DNA of 36,027 nt from Nanobdellota archaeon (GTDB lineage: Archaea; Nanobdellota; Nanobdellia; Parvarchaeales; Parvarchaeaceae). Below are positions 11,116-17,363 of this stretch, piece by piece. The stretch spans positions 1 to 36,027 of the forward strand of contig JAJZNK010000032.1 in the NCBI GenBank assembly GCA_021811735.1, written 5' to 3'. The translations under genes and the position numbers were made by a program. Every line of letters starts with the position of its first letter. Within the stretch, counting starts at the first letter, position 1. The notes below the pieces were generated by a model. That model had not been told where the DNA came from and did no database searches. It saw nothing but the letters and a program-made list of their open reading frames with translations.

Positions 11116-12552
11116 ATGAATGAAAATCAATTAAATATCCTTTTTTCTAATGGAATACTCGTAGATTCCTCAATAAAGGATATAAATATTTTGGACCTGG
11201 ATCTTCTTATCAAATCTCTAAAAGGGAAAAATATAACCTTCCTAGATATGGATACTTTTCATAAAGTATATTCTGGGGAGACTGCAGATGATTCTAGTGT
11301 TGAAATAGTTAAGAACTACGAGGGAGAGATATCTGAATCCAAACCAGTCAATTGGGTAAATTATTTTAATGATAGATTCTCAAGGATAAAAAATATTTTG
11401 ATAATGAAGGATCGGAGCGGATTGATGTCTCTATCAAACATAAAAAACATGCCACAAAGTTCAGATGTAAAGACAATAGCCATGGTATCTTCCGTTTCAG
11501 TGAGTCCAATTAAAAAATATACAATACTGGATATCGAAGACAATACTGGGACTTATAAGGCAATAATAACAAATTCAAATCAAGAAATCTTGGAAGATCA
11601 GGTCATTACTATAACTGGCAGAAAATACAATGATGCAATATTTGTCAAAGATATTGTGCTTCCAGATATACAGATGAAAGAAAAAACAAAACAGGAAATG
11701 GATGATGCCTTCATACTTTTTATTTCTGATATACACATAGGATCAAGGCTTTTCGTTGCCGAGGCATTCGAAAAATTCATAAAATGGATAAATGGCGATA
11801 TCTTAGAATATTCAAATATAGCTAAACTCGTAAAGTTCATCGTTTTAAATGGCGATTTAATAGACGGAATAGGAGTTTATCCTGACCAGGAAAAAGAACT
11901 TGGAATAAAGGATCTAAAAGGGCAATATGACAAGCTTTATGAGTATCTCGATAGAATCCCAAAACATATTAAGATTCTGATCTCTCAAGGAAATCATGAC
12001 GCTACGCATATCGCAGAACCACAGCCAAAACTGGACAGAAGTTTCGCAGGCAGCTTGTATAATCTTAAAAATGGGATTTTTCTGTCAAATCCTTATCAAG
12101 TAAATCTTACAGTCAGCAAAACAAAAATAAATCTCCTTTCTTATCATGGATTTAGCATTCCTTATTATGCCAACAAAATACCCAAATACAGTAAGATGGA
12201 TGCTGAAGATATAGAAAGCATAATGAAGATAATGCTGAAGTCAAGACATCTGGCACCTTCACATGGCTCAACACAGCTTATGCCACTTCCTATGGACTAT
12301 TTAGTTATTGATGAAACTCCAGATATATTTGCTACAGGCCACATACACAAGACATTAGCCTCAATTTACAAAGGGACAGTCCTTATAAACTCATCCTGCT
12401 GGCAGCACCAAACATCATACCAAAAAAAGTATGGTATGGTTCCGGATGTTGCAAAGATACCTATAGTAAATCTGCGTGATAAAAGCTTCCAGATACTAGA
12501 CTTTTTGGGTGACAAGGTGCAGATTTACAAAAAAGGCTTGAAGGAGGTTTGA
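11116..12552 (+). CDS. polB: DNA polymerase D small (exonuclease) subunit DP1
   Basis: Proofreading subunit of the archaeal replicative polymerase PolD. An N-terminal region of low conservation is followed by an OB-fold (KKYTILDIEDNTGTYKAII, about residues 135-190). The calcineurin-like phosphodiesterase domain carries SDIHIGS (about 205), NGDLIDGIG (about 250), SQGNHD (about 292), SYHGFS and TGHIHKT (about 408), so all metal-binding motifs are present and exonuclease activity is expected. The length of 478 residues is typical. The large subunit is not in the window. It starts a tight run with two nucleotide kinases; its TGA shares one base with the next ATG. Confidence 0.95.
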   Translation: MNENQLNILFSNGILVDSSIKDINILDLDLLIKSLKGKNITFLDMDTFHKVYSGETADDSSVEIVKNYEGEISESKPVNWVNYFNDRFSRIKNILIMKDRSGLMSLSNIKNMPQSSDVKTIAMVSSVSVSPIKKYTILDIEDNTGTYKAIITNSNQEILEDQVITITGRKYNDAIFVKDIVLPDIQMKEKTKQEMDDAFILFISDIHIGSRLFVAEAFEKFIKWINGDILEYSNIAKLVKFIVLNGDLIDGIGVYPDQEKELGIKDLKGQYDKLYEYLDRIPKHIKILISQGNHDATHIAEPQPKLDRSFAGSLYNLKNGIFLSNPYQVNLTVSKTKINLLSYHGFSIPYYANKIPKYSKMDAEDIESIMKIMLKSRHLAPSHGSTQLMPLPMDYLVIDETPDIFATGHIHKTLASIYKGTVLINSSCWQHQTSYQKKYGMVPDVAKIPIVNLRDKSFQILDFLGDKVQIYKKGLKEV

Positions 12553-13166
12553 TGGTAGGAAAAATAATTGTGATAGAAGGGATAGATGGCGCTGGAAAGG
12601 CGACCCAGGTCAAGCTTTTGAAACAAGAGTTGGAGAAGGCAGGCAGAAAAGTTTCAACTTATTCCTACCCAGATTACTCCTCAGTATATGGTGAAAGGAT
12701 AAAATCATTTCTTTATAAAAAGATCGACATAAACGTTGATGAACTCTTTTTGTTGTATCAGATTGACATGGTAAAAGACCGCTCAAGAATACTCAAGGCG
12801 ATAGAAGAAGAACAATACGTTGTAATGGATAGATACGTTTTTTCAACGATAGCCTATCAATCTGCGGGCGGATTTGATTATGAGACTGCTAAAAAACTTG
12901 TCAAGTTTATTGGCATGCCAGTTCCGGATGTAGTTTTTTATGTAGATATCTCAGCTGATATTTCTATGTATAGAAAAGAGAAACAAAAAGGCAAAATAGA
13001 TATCGACAAATTTGAAAGCAACAAATCCTTTCTCTCAAGGGTTTCTTCATATTACAAAAAACTTCTCGATGAAAATTTTTATTCTAAAAAATGGGAACGA
13101 ATAGACGGAAACCTAAATATAGAGGAGATAAACGATTTAATTACAAAAAAATTAAATGAATTATGA
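12552..13166 (+). CDS. tmk: Thymidylate kinase 1 (catalytically intact P-loop)
   Basis: Phosphorylates dTMP to dTDP. The P-loop GIDGAGKATQ is complete, and VVMDRYVFSTIAYQ is the DRY block. The region after strand 2 reads YSYPDYSSVYGERI, the eukaryote-like (FPxxxxxxG) form, not the bacterial TKEPG form. Length is 204 residues. The ORF track opens at TTG 12549, but ATG 12552 follows GGAGG at 12543-12547 and overlaps the polB stop by one base, so it is the better start. It overlaps the next kinase gene by 4 bases (ATGA). Confidence 0.92.
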   Translation: MVGKIIVIEGIDGAGKATQVKLLKQELEKAGRKVSTYSYPDYSSVYGERIKSFLYKKIDINVDELFLLYQIDMVKDRSRILKAIEEEQYVVMDRYVFSTIAYQSAGGFDYETAKKLVKFIGMPVPDVVFYVDISADISMYRKEKQKGKIDIDKFESNKSFLSRVSSYYKKLLDENFYSKKWERIDGNLNIEEINDLITKKLNEL

Positions 13167-13783
13167 AAGGCAAATTTATAGTTATAGAAGGGATAGACAA
13201 TGCTGGTATAGGCACGCAATCTGTCTTTCTAGCCGAACATCTAAGAAAAAACGGCCTTAAAGTGCTGCTTACAAAGGAGCCTACAAATGGTTTGTTAGGC
13301 GGCATATCAAAAGCTGTACTCAACAAAGAAATAGACCTATCCGGCAAAGCATTGCAGCTCCTTTTTTGTGCAGATAGAGCTCATCATCTGGCCTCTGAAA
13401 TAGAACCAGCAATGAACGCCGGTTCAAACATAATCTGTGACAGATACTTTTTTTCTACACTGGCATACGGATTTGCATCAAATATAAATTATAAATGGTT
13501 AAGGTCCGTCAACATAAGCTTCCGCAAACCGGATCTCGGTATATATTTAGATGTAGATCCAAAAACCGCATTATCACGTATGCCAAAAGGGGAGGACAGA
13601 TTGCAGCTTTTTGATAATCTACAGAAACTTTCAAAAGTAAGACAAGCGTACATTTCTATTTCAAAGGAATTTCACTTGAAAAAAGTAGATGCAAATAAGA
13701 GTATAGACGAAGTAAGCCAAAGAATAAATAATATCGTTGATAAATTCTTGAATATAAAGGACTCACACCCTTATGCAAATTAG
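13163..13783 (+). CDS. Thymidylate kinase-like protein 2 with degenerate P-loop
   Basis: Clear thymidylate-kinase family member: FIVIEGIDNAG, TKEPTNG, CDRYFFSTLAYG, IYLDVDPKTALSR, and a LID-like GEDRLQ. The P-loop reads GIDNAGIGTQ where the family has GxDGxGK[ST]TQ, so the ATP-phosphate-binding lysine is isoleucine. The TKEP block makes it the bacterial-style subtype, unlike its neighbour, so this is not a simple recent duplication. It may be inactive, use another lysine, or act as a partner of kinase 1; none of these can be shown here. At 206 residues it is full length. It overlaps kinase 1 by 4 bases and the next gene by 11 bases. Confidence 0.85.
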   Translation: MKGKFIVIEGIDNAGIGTQSVFLAEHLRKNGLKVLLTKEPTNGLLGGISKAVLNKEIDLSGKALQLLFCADRAHHLASEIEPAMNAGSNIICDRYFFSTLAYGFASNINYKWLRSVNISFRKPDLGIYLDVDPKTALSRMPKGEDRLQLFDNLQKLSKVRQAYISISKEFHLKKVDANKSIDEVSQRINNIVDKFLNIKDSHPYAN

Positions 13784-16700
13784 ATCAAAAAGCCAGTCAT
13801 CATTGGAATACCTCATAGTGATGGGTGTAGCGATATTTATCCTTGTTACTGCAATTTCATATTCAATTTATTATCAAGTAGGTTATAACTCAGCAAGCAC
13901 TTCCCAAGATCTTCAACTCGCGGCTACGAGTATATCAAATGCAGTAACGGCAGTATCGGGAGGCGAAATAGGTTCTTCGCAACAGTTTAGCTTCAGTTCT
14001 CCAGGATTATCGCTCACATCATCAATCTGCAATACCTCTCTATCCTTGAATTTTGCAGGTGAACAAGCATCCCAATCACTTTCGATGTATACTACAGGAG
14101 AGCTTCCAGTTAACTCCGGCACATATCAAGGCAATGTAAAATTGGTGAAGGAAAACGGGCAGTCACAAGCTCAATTAACCATGGACCTTCCTATATCATA
14201 CATATCGACATCCTACACTTACAACCCTTCAAGCATATTTTATAACGTATCCTTTTTAGATACGTCTGGTAATTTAGTTGGGGATGTAAATTTTACCGTT
14301 ATAATATATAACAATAATAAAATAGTTGCAGAACAAAACGAAACAACAATTTCTGGTTATTATTCTGGTAGCATAATACCTACAAATGGTCAGTTCTCTT
14401 CTAATTCAATAGCGGAGATTTATGTGGAGGATTTGGGGATAATAAGTCCTTCTTGCTTCCTTCCCCAAAAACTGCTTTTTGTTCCGGGCAATGTTTTAAA
14501 TTTTCTTCCGCTAGAAATTTCTAATAATCAAAATTTATCCACCTCAAATCCTTTTCAGCAGGAACTTACAATAAACTCTGCTAATTATCAGCAGTACGAA
14601 GCTTCAAACCTGCAAAATGTTGAGTTCTTTTTTCCAAATGGAACAATTATTAATTCATGGTTAGAATCGGGAAATTCAAATACTGATACCAGTACCGTGT
14701 ACTGGTTAAAGATAGCTGGAATACCTGCTCATTCATCAGAAACAATATATATGGGATTTGCATCGAAATCATCGAATATTTTCAACACGACAAATGATGG
14801 CGAAGCTCCACAATTGTCTTCAACATATGCACAGTATGATAACGGGGCGAATGTATTTCTTGATTATTTTTCGGGTGATTCATCTGCTGGATGGACAACA
14901 GCTGGAACAAGTGGGCAGACCACTTCAGCTCCGTCCGGATCTCCTTTCGGCACAAATGCGCTTTATGCGCTGGATTCTGGGGGAAATTATATGTACACTC
15001 ACGCAACAGGTCAATCTACCAATATGGTAATTGAATATTATACTTATATTAACAATTTAAATGATGTTTTCTTTTTGGTTAATTCAGCAGGGACTGGACA
15101 ATTAGCACGTCAGGGCAGTGGTGGGGGCTGGTACGGAATTGCATCAACTTCATCCTGGACGGCTTGGAACGCACCTCCAGATACGGGAGTATGGAGCGGA
15201 GAATGGGTTTTATCTGCTGTGGTAGTATCAGGCGGCATTGCACAACAATACCTTTCCACGACTCTTGGAAACTACGGAAGTGAAATCGGCCAGAATCCTT
15301 CAAATTCATATACTGTTGCAAATAATGGTAATTATCTTGGATTGATCGGTGACAGTGCGAGCTCTTCCGATGAATATTGGAACGGGATAATAGTGCGTGC
15401 CTACCCTCCAAACGGTGTGATGCCTTCTGTAACAGTAGGAAGTGTGCAACCACAGATAACAGTTTTTGTAAATGGAGTTAAAGACGGAAATAATGGTATA
15501 GCGCAAAGCACTTCGATGAATATAACTGCTTTCGGCGTACATGCTAGTCACATAGGATTAATAATAAATGGTTCTGTTGTAGTTCCTCTAGGTTCAGCCA
15601 GTTTATCATATCAAAAAAGCATGCCAGCTGGATTATATAATATAACTGTATTTTCCAATCAGTCAAGGCTAGCGAATCAAACATATTGGGAAGCGGTTGC
15701 CAACATACCAAATGGTGTAACCAATTTTGTTCCCATCTCAATAACCAATCAGCAATCTTTGGCAACATCTTCTCCCTTCCAGCAAAATATCTCGATAGAT
15801 TCGTTTGCGTATAAGAAATTCGAAAATCAAAGTTTGACCAATGTAGAGTTTTTCACCCCAATTGGAACGGTAATACCCTCATGGCTCGAATCGGGAGATA
15901 TGGCTAAGTTTAATGGCAACTCCTATGCAAACCTGCCTGAAAATTTCCCTTTTGTGGCCGCAGGATCATTTACAATAAGTGTCTGGTTTAAGACCACTAG
16001 TGATGGAGTGGTATTATGGAATGGGAATACTGAACAGGCTTCAACTGCAGGCACATATTCACCTATTATATATGTAAACACGAATGGAGATTTGGCAGGT
16101 GGTGATTGGGTTGGAAACCAGCCGTTCAATACGAACGATTTTGTTGCAAATGGGCAATGGAATTTCGTTACCATAACCCAAACTTCTAGTGAACAGATAC
16201 TATATTTGAATGGAAATGAAATAGCCTCCCATTCTAGTTCTTCTGTACAGGCTGTAAACCCAGTTTATTGGACTATAGGGGAAGGTTATGCTGGTGGGTG
16301 GTCTAACACAAATAATAGTAATTTTTATTTTAATGGGTATATATCAAATATACAGTTCTATAACCAAGTGTTTTCATCATCGAAAGTAGCTTTGCTTTAT
16401 GATGAGGGAATTGCAGGGTCTCCATTAAACAGTTCTGGGCTTATTGCGTGGTATTTGCTTTCTGGTAATGGTAATCAACAAAATGGTAACAATAACCTTC
16501 TACTAACTAACGTTCAATTTAAAGGAGTCTCCTCAGTAAGTACCTCTACAAATTATTGGTTGAAGTTGGGAACCATTAACCCACAGCAATCATATATAGC
16601 GTTTATGGGCTTTGTCCCGCCTAACAGAAATCTATTCAACACGACAAATGATGGTGAAGCTCCAAAACTGTCCCCTATTTATGGAGAGTATAATGATATA

Positions 16701-17363
16701 GGTAATGTAATGGATTCAGGGCTTATATATCAAATCTATTTTGATAATAGTGGATCATGCAACTCACAATCTTATCAGACCCAATTATATAATGCTAATT
16801 TAGGCGATGGAACGACTGTATCAGGATGCGCTAGCATGGTGTCTAGCACAAGTCCATTTACAACTCTACTTTCAGGGACTACTCAAAGTGTCAACGGAAA
16901 CAATCAAAACAATGTTATAATAAACTATCAATCAGGTTATAGTGGTGGGTCCCCATATCCTAACCCACCAGTTTCAAACGTAGGAAATTCTTGGGATATA
17001 AAGGCAATCGGTTGGGCTGAGTTGTCTTCATCGACTACATTTTCTGAATTTTCAGACGACGGAATAACACTCAGTTATGCAAATTTATCAGTTTCCGATA
17101 GCAATGGTCAAAATTGGTTGGGAAGTACATCAAGTCCAAATAATCTTATTAGTGGCTGGGTTCCACAGGGCGGCACACAATATAACAGTGCAGCTGTTCC
17201 CGAAGGAGTGTACCGTTTGGAGATGGACTATTTCGAATATGGGGGAGGATCATATACAGCTTTATGGTCGAATAATCCTGTGAACTATTATCATGCGGCA
17301 TATCCTCCAAATGGAGTAATGCCATTAGAAATAGTAGGTCCTTTTAATGGCAAAGTAAGCTAA
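13773..17363 (+). CDS. Large surface protein: pilin-like leader, two DUF2341 units, lectin-like domains and PA14-like C-terminus
   Basis: Probably an exported carbohydrate-binding or adhesive filament protein. The short leader MQIRSKS is followed by QSSLEYLIVMG and a hydrophobic helix. DUF2341 unit 1 spans about 242-360 (NVEFFFPNGT, SWLESG, YWLKIAG, FNTTNDGEAP). A jelly-roll, concanavalin-like region follows to about 545, ending in IIVRAYPPNGVMPSVTVG. An Ig-like segment covers about 555-645. DUF2341 unit 2 starts near 649 and is interrupted after SWLESG (about 705) by a LamG-type domain (SFTISVWFKT; FNGYISNIQFYNQ). It resumes near 925 at YWLKLG and FNTTNDGEAP. A PA14-like region (SDDGITLSY; VPEGVYRLEMDYFEY) ends the protein. 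The start overlaps the kinase gene by 11 bases, so it may be translationally coupled. Sequons are abundant. Confidence 0.85.
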   Translation: MQIRSKSQSSLEYLIVMGVAIFILVTAISYSIYYQVGYNSASTSQDLQLAATSISNAVTAVSGGEIGSSQQFSFSSPGLSLTSSICNTSLSLNFAGEQASQSLSMYTTGELPVNSGTYQGNVKLVKENGQSQAQLTMDLPISYISTSYTYNPSSIFYNVSFLDTSGNLVGDVNFTVIIYNNNKIVAEQNETTISGYYSGSIIPTNGQFSSNSIAEIYVEDLGIISPSCFLPQKLLFVPGNVLNFLPLEISNNQNLSTSNPFQQELTINSANYQQYEASNLQNVEFFFPNGTIINSWLESGNSNTDTSTVYWLKIAGIPAHSSETIYMGFASKSSNIFNTTNDGEAPQLSSTYAQYDNGANVFLDYFSGDSSAGWTTAGTSGQTTSAPSGSPFGTNALYALDSGGNYMYTHATGQSTNMVIEYYTYINNLNDVFFLVNSAGTGQLARQGSGGGWYGIASTSSWTAWNAPPDTGVWSGEWVLSAVVVSGGIAQQYLSTTLGNYGSEIGQNPSNSYTVANNGNYLGLIGDSASSSDEYWNGIIVRAYPPNGVMPSVTVGSVQPQITVFVNGVKDGNNGIAQSTSMNITAFGVHASHIGLIINGSVVVPLGSASLSYQKSMPAGLYNITVFSNQSRLANQTYWEAVANIPNGVTNFVPISITNQQSLATSSPFQQNISIDSFAYKKFENQSLTNVEFFTPIGTVIPSWLESGDMAKFNGNSYANLPENFPFVAAGSFTISVWFKTTSDGVVLWNGNTEQASTAGTYSPIIYVNTNGDLAGGDWVGNQPFNTNDFVANGQWNFVTITQTSSEQILYLNGNEIASHSSSSVQAVNPVYWTIGEGYAGGWSNTNNSNFYFNGYISNIQFYNQVFSSSKVALLYDEGIAGSPLNSSGLIAWYLLSGNGNQQNGNNNLLLTNVQFKGVSSVSTSTNYWLKLGTINPQQSYIAFMGFVPPNRNLFNTTNDGEAPKLSPIYGEYNDIGNVMDSGLIYQIYFDNSGSCNSQSYQTQLYNANLGDGTTVSGCASMVSSTSPFTTLLSGTTQSVNGNNQNNVIINYQSGYSGGSPYPNPPVSNVGNSWDIKAIGWAELSSSTTFSEFSDDGITLSYANLSVSDSNGQNWLGSTSSPNNLISGWVPQGGTQYNSAAVPEGVYRLEMDYFEYGGGSYTALWSNNPVNYYHAAYPPNGVMPLEIVGPFNGKVS

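Follow-up and report, generated by a model that had tools for sequence, protein, structure and literature searches.

The window, a 36,027-nucleotide stretch of DNA from a Nanobdellota archaeon, encodes two unlike thymidylate kinases (TMKs) in tandem, the second of which, K2, lacks the Walker A lysine. We consider it probable that K2 works as a housekeeping dTMP kinase and belongs to a widespread branch that is active without this lysine, and that the first protein, K1, is a second TMK, accessory or differently tuned. The features of the locus are as follows.

11116–12552, plus strand: DP1-like small subunit of archaeal DNA polymerase D, 478 aa (Pfam DNA_pol_E_B 2.8e-10, Metallophos 9e-11)
12552–13166, plus strand: K1, eukaryote-like TMK, 204 aa (TIGR00041, 123.6 bits)
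13163–13166, plus strand: ATGA overlap of the K1 stop and the K2 start, read from the sequence
13163–13783, plus strand: K2, bacterial-type TMK without the Walker A lysine, 206 aa (TIGR00041, 153.6 bits)
13190–13219, plus strand: deviant Walker A motif of K2, GIDNAGIGTQ (residue 16 codon ATA at 13208–13210)
13271–13282, plus strand: TKEP motif of K2, residues 37–40 (Lys38, candidate stand-in for the missing lysine)
13773–17363, plus strand: large protein with an archaeal pilin/class III signal-like start (QSSLEYLIV); open reading frame with an 11-base overlap with K2

K1 starts at ATG 12552, with an RBS-like GGAGG at 12543–12548; TTG 12549 is merely the mechanical start of its open reading frame. 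The DP1 stop codon TGA (12550–12552) shares one base with this start (junction TGATG), and the K1 stop codon TGA (13164–13166) falls in the four-base overlap with K2, the length of which had been given correctly in the original prediction. Translational coupling is expected at this overlap, and we infer that DP1, K1 and K2 are co-expressed as an operon. A genome-wide search of the window genome found K1 and K2 and no other PF02223 proteins. The large protein downstream, which is of surface type, adjoins K2 throughout the family.

Both kinases are full-length TMKs and scored far above the curated dTMP kinase cut-off of TIGR00041 (83.25 bits), and their PF02223 scores were 117 for K1 and 146 for K2 (cut-off 27). 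The Walker A motif of K1 is GIDGAGKATQ, with Lys16 present, and the protein carries the segment YSYPDY. In K2 the lysine position is occupied by Ile16, as had been noticed from the sequence at the outset, so that the textbook lysine is absent. K2 keeps TKEP, ADR (70–72), DRY (93–95) and LID Arg139, and the three arginines Arg72, Arg94 and Arg139 are invariant in alignment A1 of K2 proteins, which has 15 invariant columns including E9, G10, D12, G15, T18, Q19, D71, R72, H75, R94, S98, N117 and R139. The Ser/Thr that usually follows the lysine site is absent from both proteins (Ala17 in K1, GKATQ; Gly17 in K2, GIGTQ). The nearest relatives of K2 have an adenylate-kinase-like GKGTQ in their Walker A motif. 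Structures predicted with AF2 had a pLDDT of 95.3 for K2 and 94.0 for K1. The best PDB match of the K2 model was 2wwf, a TMK with dTMP and ADP bound (TM 0.88, rmsd 1.5 Å), that of the K1 model was P. falciparum TMK (TM 0.87), and the 50 best structure matches were all TMKs (best TM 0.87–0.88).

In a comparison set of 94 related genomes, the K1–K2 pair was found on the same strand in nearly all sampled species of the genus, a recurrence that far exceeds what chance would give. The spacing lay between −3 and +3 nt, other species showing the −3 register of the window or gaps of 2–3 nt; in G030 it was 59 nt. The order eIF1-like SUI1, DP1, K1, K2 and large protein was kept across the family, which bears out the earlier description of two unlike kinases in tandem beside the polymerase subunit. 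K1 has gone from the cluster in G007, G016, G023 and G031, where DP1, K2 and the large protein remain; in G029 (88% complete) K2 was not found and DP1–K1 remains. In G029 and G028 K1 was the sole PF02223 protein found. Tandem TMKs also occur in family f6 (G036), and Micrarchaeota have a divergent TMK pair (L204, L217). Adjacent TMK pairs were seen in Chloroflexi as well, namely L132 (G101), with one lysine-free and one lysine-bearing copy, and L261 (G117), with Arg at the lysine site in one copy. A Nealsonbacteria/Parcubacteria genome of 0.5 Mb (G113) has two K1-type TMKs, both lysine-free (L145 and L258; Val and Ala).

All K1 orthologues of the genus have the lysine. Residue 16 of K2 is Lys (AAA/AAG) in the ten species nearest to the window and Ile, Leu or Val (ATN/CTN/GTN) in the others. 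Of the two features that the original prediction had proposed to look for in relatives, the pair was conserved and the Ile was not. A conserved Ile as a signature of K2 was rejected, the site varying among L, I, V, M, Q and S, with K in the nearest relatives.

We then scanned GTDB representatives with the lysine-free Walker A pattern E-G-[LIVMF]-D-[GN]-[AS]-G-[LIVMF]-x-T-Q. The pattern occurred at no fewer than 116 loci (at least 116), and among the matches listed, 106 of 116 were in TMK homologues. The bacterial sources were Bacillota (Peptococcaceae, Desulfosporosinus, Gracilibacter), Chloroflexota and Paceibacterota-type bacteria, and the archaeal sources were ANME-1 and other Methanosarcinales/Methanophagales, Thermoproteota, Aenigmatarchaeota, Micrarchaeota and Parvarchaeota. 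In a tree of 188 TMKs, built with the lysine column left out, the K2 clade comprised 115 rows, of which 104 were lysine-free (50 Leu, 43 Ile, 8 Val, and one each of Met, Gln and Ser) and 11 had Lys; this ratio is not a frequency in nature because part of the sample had been selected with the very pattern that picks out lysine-free proteins. Members of the clade come from Parvarchaeota, Micrarchaeota, Aenigmatarchaeota, Thermoproteota, ANME-1, Bacillota and Chloroflexota. The K1 clade had Lys in 42 of 47 rows, the remainder having Cys, Val, Ala or Arg, and only six state changes were needed on the whole tree. Judged from this tree, the lysine-free TMKs are a large, old clade. Since absence of the lysine is normal in the K2 clade and those members score above the curated cut-off, the lysine does not define the family as curated, and K2 remains a TMK. 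We found no description and no assay of a natural lysine-free TMK in the open-access literature, and no natural chain of this kind among the PDB alignments inspected. The sole lysine-free chain in those alignments was a T. thermophilus variant, 5x8j, which carries Met there; the wild type, also present, has the lysine. K2 has relatives among phage TMKs, at about 30% identity.

The distribution of the lysine-free proteins bears directly on their activity. Of 29 whole genomes picked from among the scan matches, 19 had a lysine-free protein as their single PF02223 match, including those of A. acetoxydans, P. ferrireducens, CEB3 and AR5. The cultured Acididesulfobacillus acetoxydans has a complete chromosome of 4.5 Mb, its sole PF02223 protein is a lysine-free TMK, and it encodes ThyX and therefore makes dTMP. 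The gene for this TMK (L266) adjoins a spo0A-like regulator and not holB. Across 46 genomes of the family Desulfitobacteriaceae, 30 had only a lysine-bearing TMK of another, eukaryote-like subfamily, six had only a lysine-free TMK, none had both and ten had neither. Two enzymes that share one essential function would be expected to exclude each other in this way, but the six genomes do not all represent separate lineages. The ten genomes with no PF02223 match (G350, G356, G365, G366, G368, G370, G376, G378, G379 and G385) gave only weak P-loop matches with profile A2, and they are either incomplete assemblies or the carriers of an unrecognised dTMP kinase. If they are complete, another enzyme can make dTDP and the argument from sole TMKs weakens. 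On the strength of the sole-TMK genomes, A. acetoxydans among them, and of the mutual exclusion in its family, the lysine-free TMKs are most likely active dTMP kinases.

Substitution rates were compared between two loci. The lysine-free K2 proteins L047 and L059 differed by a dN of 0.002 and a dS of 0.257 (dN/dS about 0.01), which points to strong purifying selection, and the K1 proteins of the same two loci differed by a dN of 0.063 and a dS of 0.881. K2 evolves more slowly than K1. The original view that K2 is not decaying was thus sustained by its retained DRY and LID motifs, its invariant columns and the signs of selection.

An inactive, regulatory role for K2, which had been offered as one possibility on account of the missing lysine, was not supported. 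As a pseudokinase, K2 would form a pair with K1 in which its part was regulatory or structural. TMKs are dimers, the tandem with its four-base overlap is conserved across the genus and appears again in family f6, Micrarchaeota have their divergent pair, and K1 has its lysine throughout the genus, all of which would suit such a partnership; moreover, because a lysine-free K2 usually lies beside a lysine-bearing K1 in the window genus, K2 need not be active there. However, the lysine-free protein is not always accompanied by an active paralogue. It is the only TMK in many genomes, one of them complete and with ThyX, and the lysine is missing from both TMKs in G036 (L076/L075) and G056 (L107/L208), with Cys16 in K1 and Leu or Met in K2. 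Furthermore, K2 persists beside DP1 without K1 in G007, G016 and G023, it is the slower-evolving copy, the lysine is present in the nearest K2s, and neither eroding catalytic residues nor relaxed selection was found. We therefore hold a pseudokinase role to be very improbable. Pseudokinase status or decay of K2 was rejected as a candidate on the sole-TMK genomes, the purifying selection and the intact predicted fold. Catalysis by K2 is, in our reading of these comparisons, the probable state.

The Ile of the window has its own history within the clade. In a tree of concatenated K1 and K2, the window was sister to the lysine-bearing G020 (support 98/97 with DNA, 84/87 with protein), and both sat in a subclade of 11 genomes, the other ten members of which have Lys. 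The cheapest history starts from a lysine-free ancestor, has Lys appear at the root of the subclade and has it disappear in the window via AAA to ATA (two steps as against three). The window K2 has thus probably lost the lysine again by a single base change, and its Ile would be a local change, yet one that restores what the clade had of old. Relatives bearing the usual lysine had been named beforehand as a finding that would speak for a sporadic mutation, and such relatives do exist, being ten of the 11 in the subclade, while the wider clade is lysine-free; accordingly, the Ile is not conserved, nor is it simply a sporadic mutation. That Ile16 is nothing but a sporadic mutation or a single-base assembly error (AAA to ATA) in what would otherwise be a lysine-bearing K2 seems unlikely to us: the other members of the subclade, ten in all and the sister G020 among them, carry Lys, but hydrophobic residues occupy the site elsewhere in the genus and across the wider clade, so that the state is viable, and an error could account only for a single base of the window genome and not for the phenomenon. 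Because the nearest relatives regained the lysine and the window probably lost it again, residue 16 looks exchangeable.

Normally the Walker A lysine forms a bridge between the beta and gamma phosphates. Without it, ATP in K2 would be held by the backbone amides of the P-loop and by Mg2+, and the charge of the transferred phosphate would be balanced by other conserved basic residues, namely Lys38 of TKEP, residue 50, Arg72, Arg94 of DRY and LID Arg139. In the window subclade, the lysine would have been regained at the site and then lost again in the window species, and K1, a TMK of another subfamily, would be co-translated from the DP1–K1–K2 operon. The lysine-free clade keeps all the other charged residues and at position 38 prefers Lys to Arg. 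Lys38 was present in 100 of 109 lysine-free rows versus 23 of 79 lysine-bearing rows, which after correction for the tree amount to only 5–6 independent contrasts. The Cys16 K1-type proteins L076 and L107 also have Lys38; the exceptions have Ser38 (L066, L067, L187), Ala38 (L191) or Arg38 (L139, L215). In other TMKs (S. aureus TMK) a residue at this position binds the acceptor phosphate, and Lys38 may reach the transferred phosphate. Compensation for the missing lysine by Lys38 is suggested by this pattern, and simple dispensability of the lysine is equally open, given the few independent changes and the Lys38 exceptions. That a branch of essential P-loop kinases dispensed with the Walker A lysine and moved its role to Lys38, with one archaeal genus regaining and relosing it in a natural two-way swap, is a tentative and rather doubtful proposal.

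The base pocket sets K1 apart. K1 has IDM in place of ADR, that is, Met (residue 73) for the arginine that contacts the base, thymine, in characterised TMKs; in alignment A2 this arginine is replaced by Met, Ile or Phe in all paired K1s. A new substrate, one of the options in the original prediction, is conceivable, but the sequence hint of altered specificity sits in K1 and not in K2. Owing to this changed pocket and its faster evolution, K1 appears to be the accessory or differently tuned copy, and it may suit a different monophosphate or different conditions. Neither ThyX nor ThyA was found in the window genome (G000, 88.8% complete), so thymidine compounds are probably salvaged there, and kinases for salvaged monophosphates would matter. 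Likewise, no ThyX or ThyA was found in G002, G015 and G020, which keep the pair, and the presence of ThyX varies within the genus; this suggests salvage of thymidine from a host in these four genomes. Both kinases could then be active on different substrates, K1 phosphorylating a different, host-derived (d)NMP obtained by salvage, a reading compatible with our preferred one and favoured by the lost ADR arginine of all paired K1s, the expected salvage and the faster evolution of K1. It has to be set against the DRY and Tyr102 that K1 retains, its score above the TMK equivalog cut-off, the genomes G029 and G028, in which K1 as the only PF02223 protein may have to phosphorylate dTMP, and G004 (98% complete), which has ThyX and still the pair. 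We regard separate substrates as a serious possibility, if a little short of an even chance. As for the preferred reading, with K2 as the housekeeping enzyme, we infer a division of labour between the two kinases.

The Walker A lysine is taken as the mark by which P-loop NTPases are known, and proteins that have lost it are routinely classed as inactive. Here, the loss is clade-wide, deep and apparently reversible in an essential enzyme, and it extends to cultured, testable bacteria. The lysine-free TMKs would therefore be a natural experiment on what this lysine does, and they counsel caution against calling pseudoenzymes from one residue.

Among known systems, K2 resembles the bacterial/archaeal dTMP kinases (Aquifex aeolicus 2pbr, Thermus thermophilus 5x7j) in its full-length family match, fold, TKEP/TREP, ADR, DRY and LID arginine, but differs in that 104 of the 115 K2-clade rows have Leu, Ile, Val, Met, Gln or Ser at the lysine site. 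K1 shares the [FY]P[DNE] segment with the eukaryote-like TMKs (human 1e2d/1e9f, Plasmodium 2wwf, vaccinia 2v54), a type also used by most Desulfitobacteriaceae, and its best PDB sequence match is human TMK; however, K1 has Gly instead of Arg three residues before the lysine and Met for the base-contacting Arg. The WNK ("with no lysine") protein kinases are active without the textbook ATP-binding lysine, and relocation of their lysine is known; the likeness is one of analogy only, as their fold is unrelated and relocation (to Lys38) is here no more than a suggestion. Mycobacterial dephospho-CoA kinase (CoaE) is likewise a P-loop kinase that works with a non-polar residue at the lysine site, its Lys14Ala substitution (K14A) lowering kcat by only 19% and raising the Km for ATP by about half (PMC3019153), but that protein is a laboratory mutant, whereas the TMKs described here are a natural lineage.
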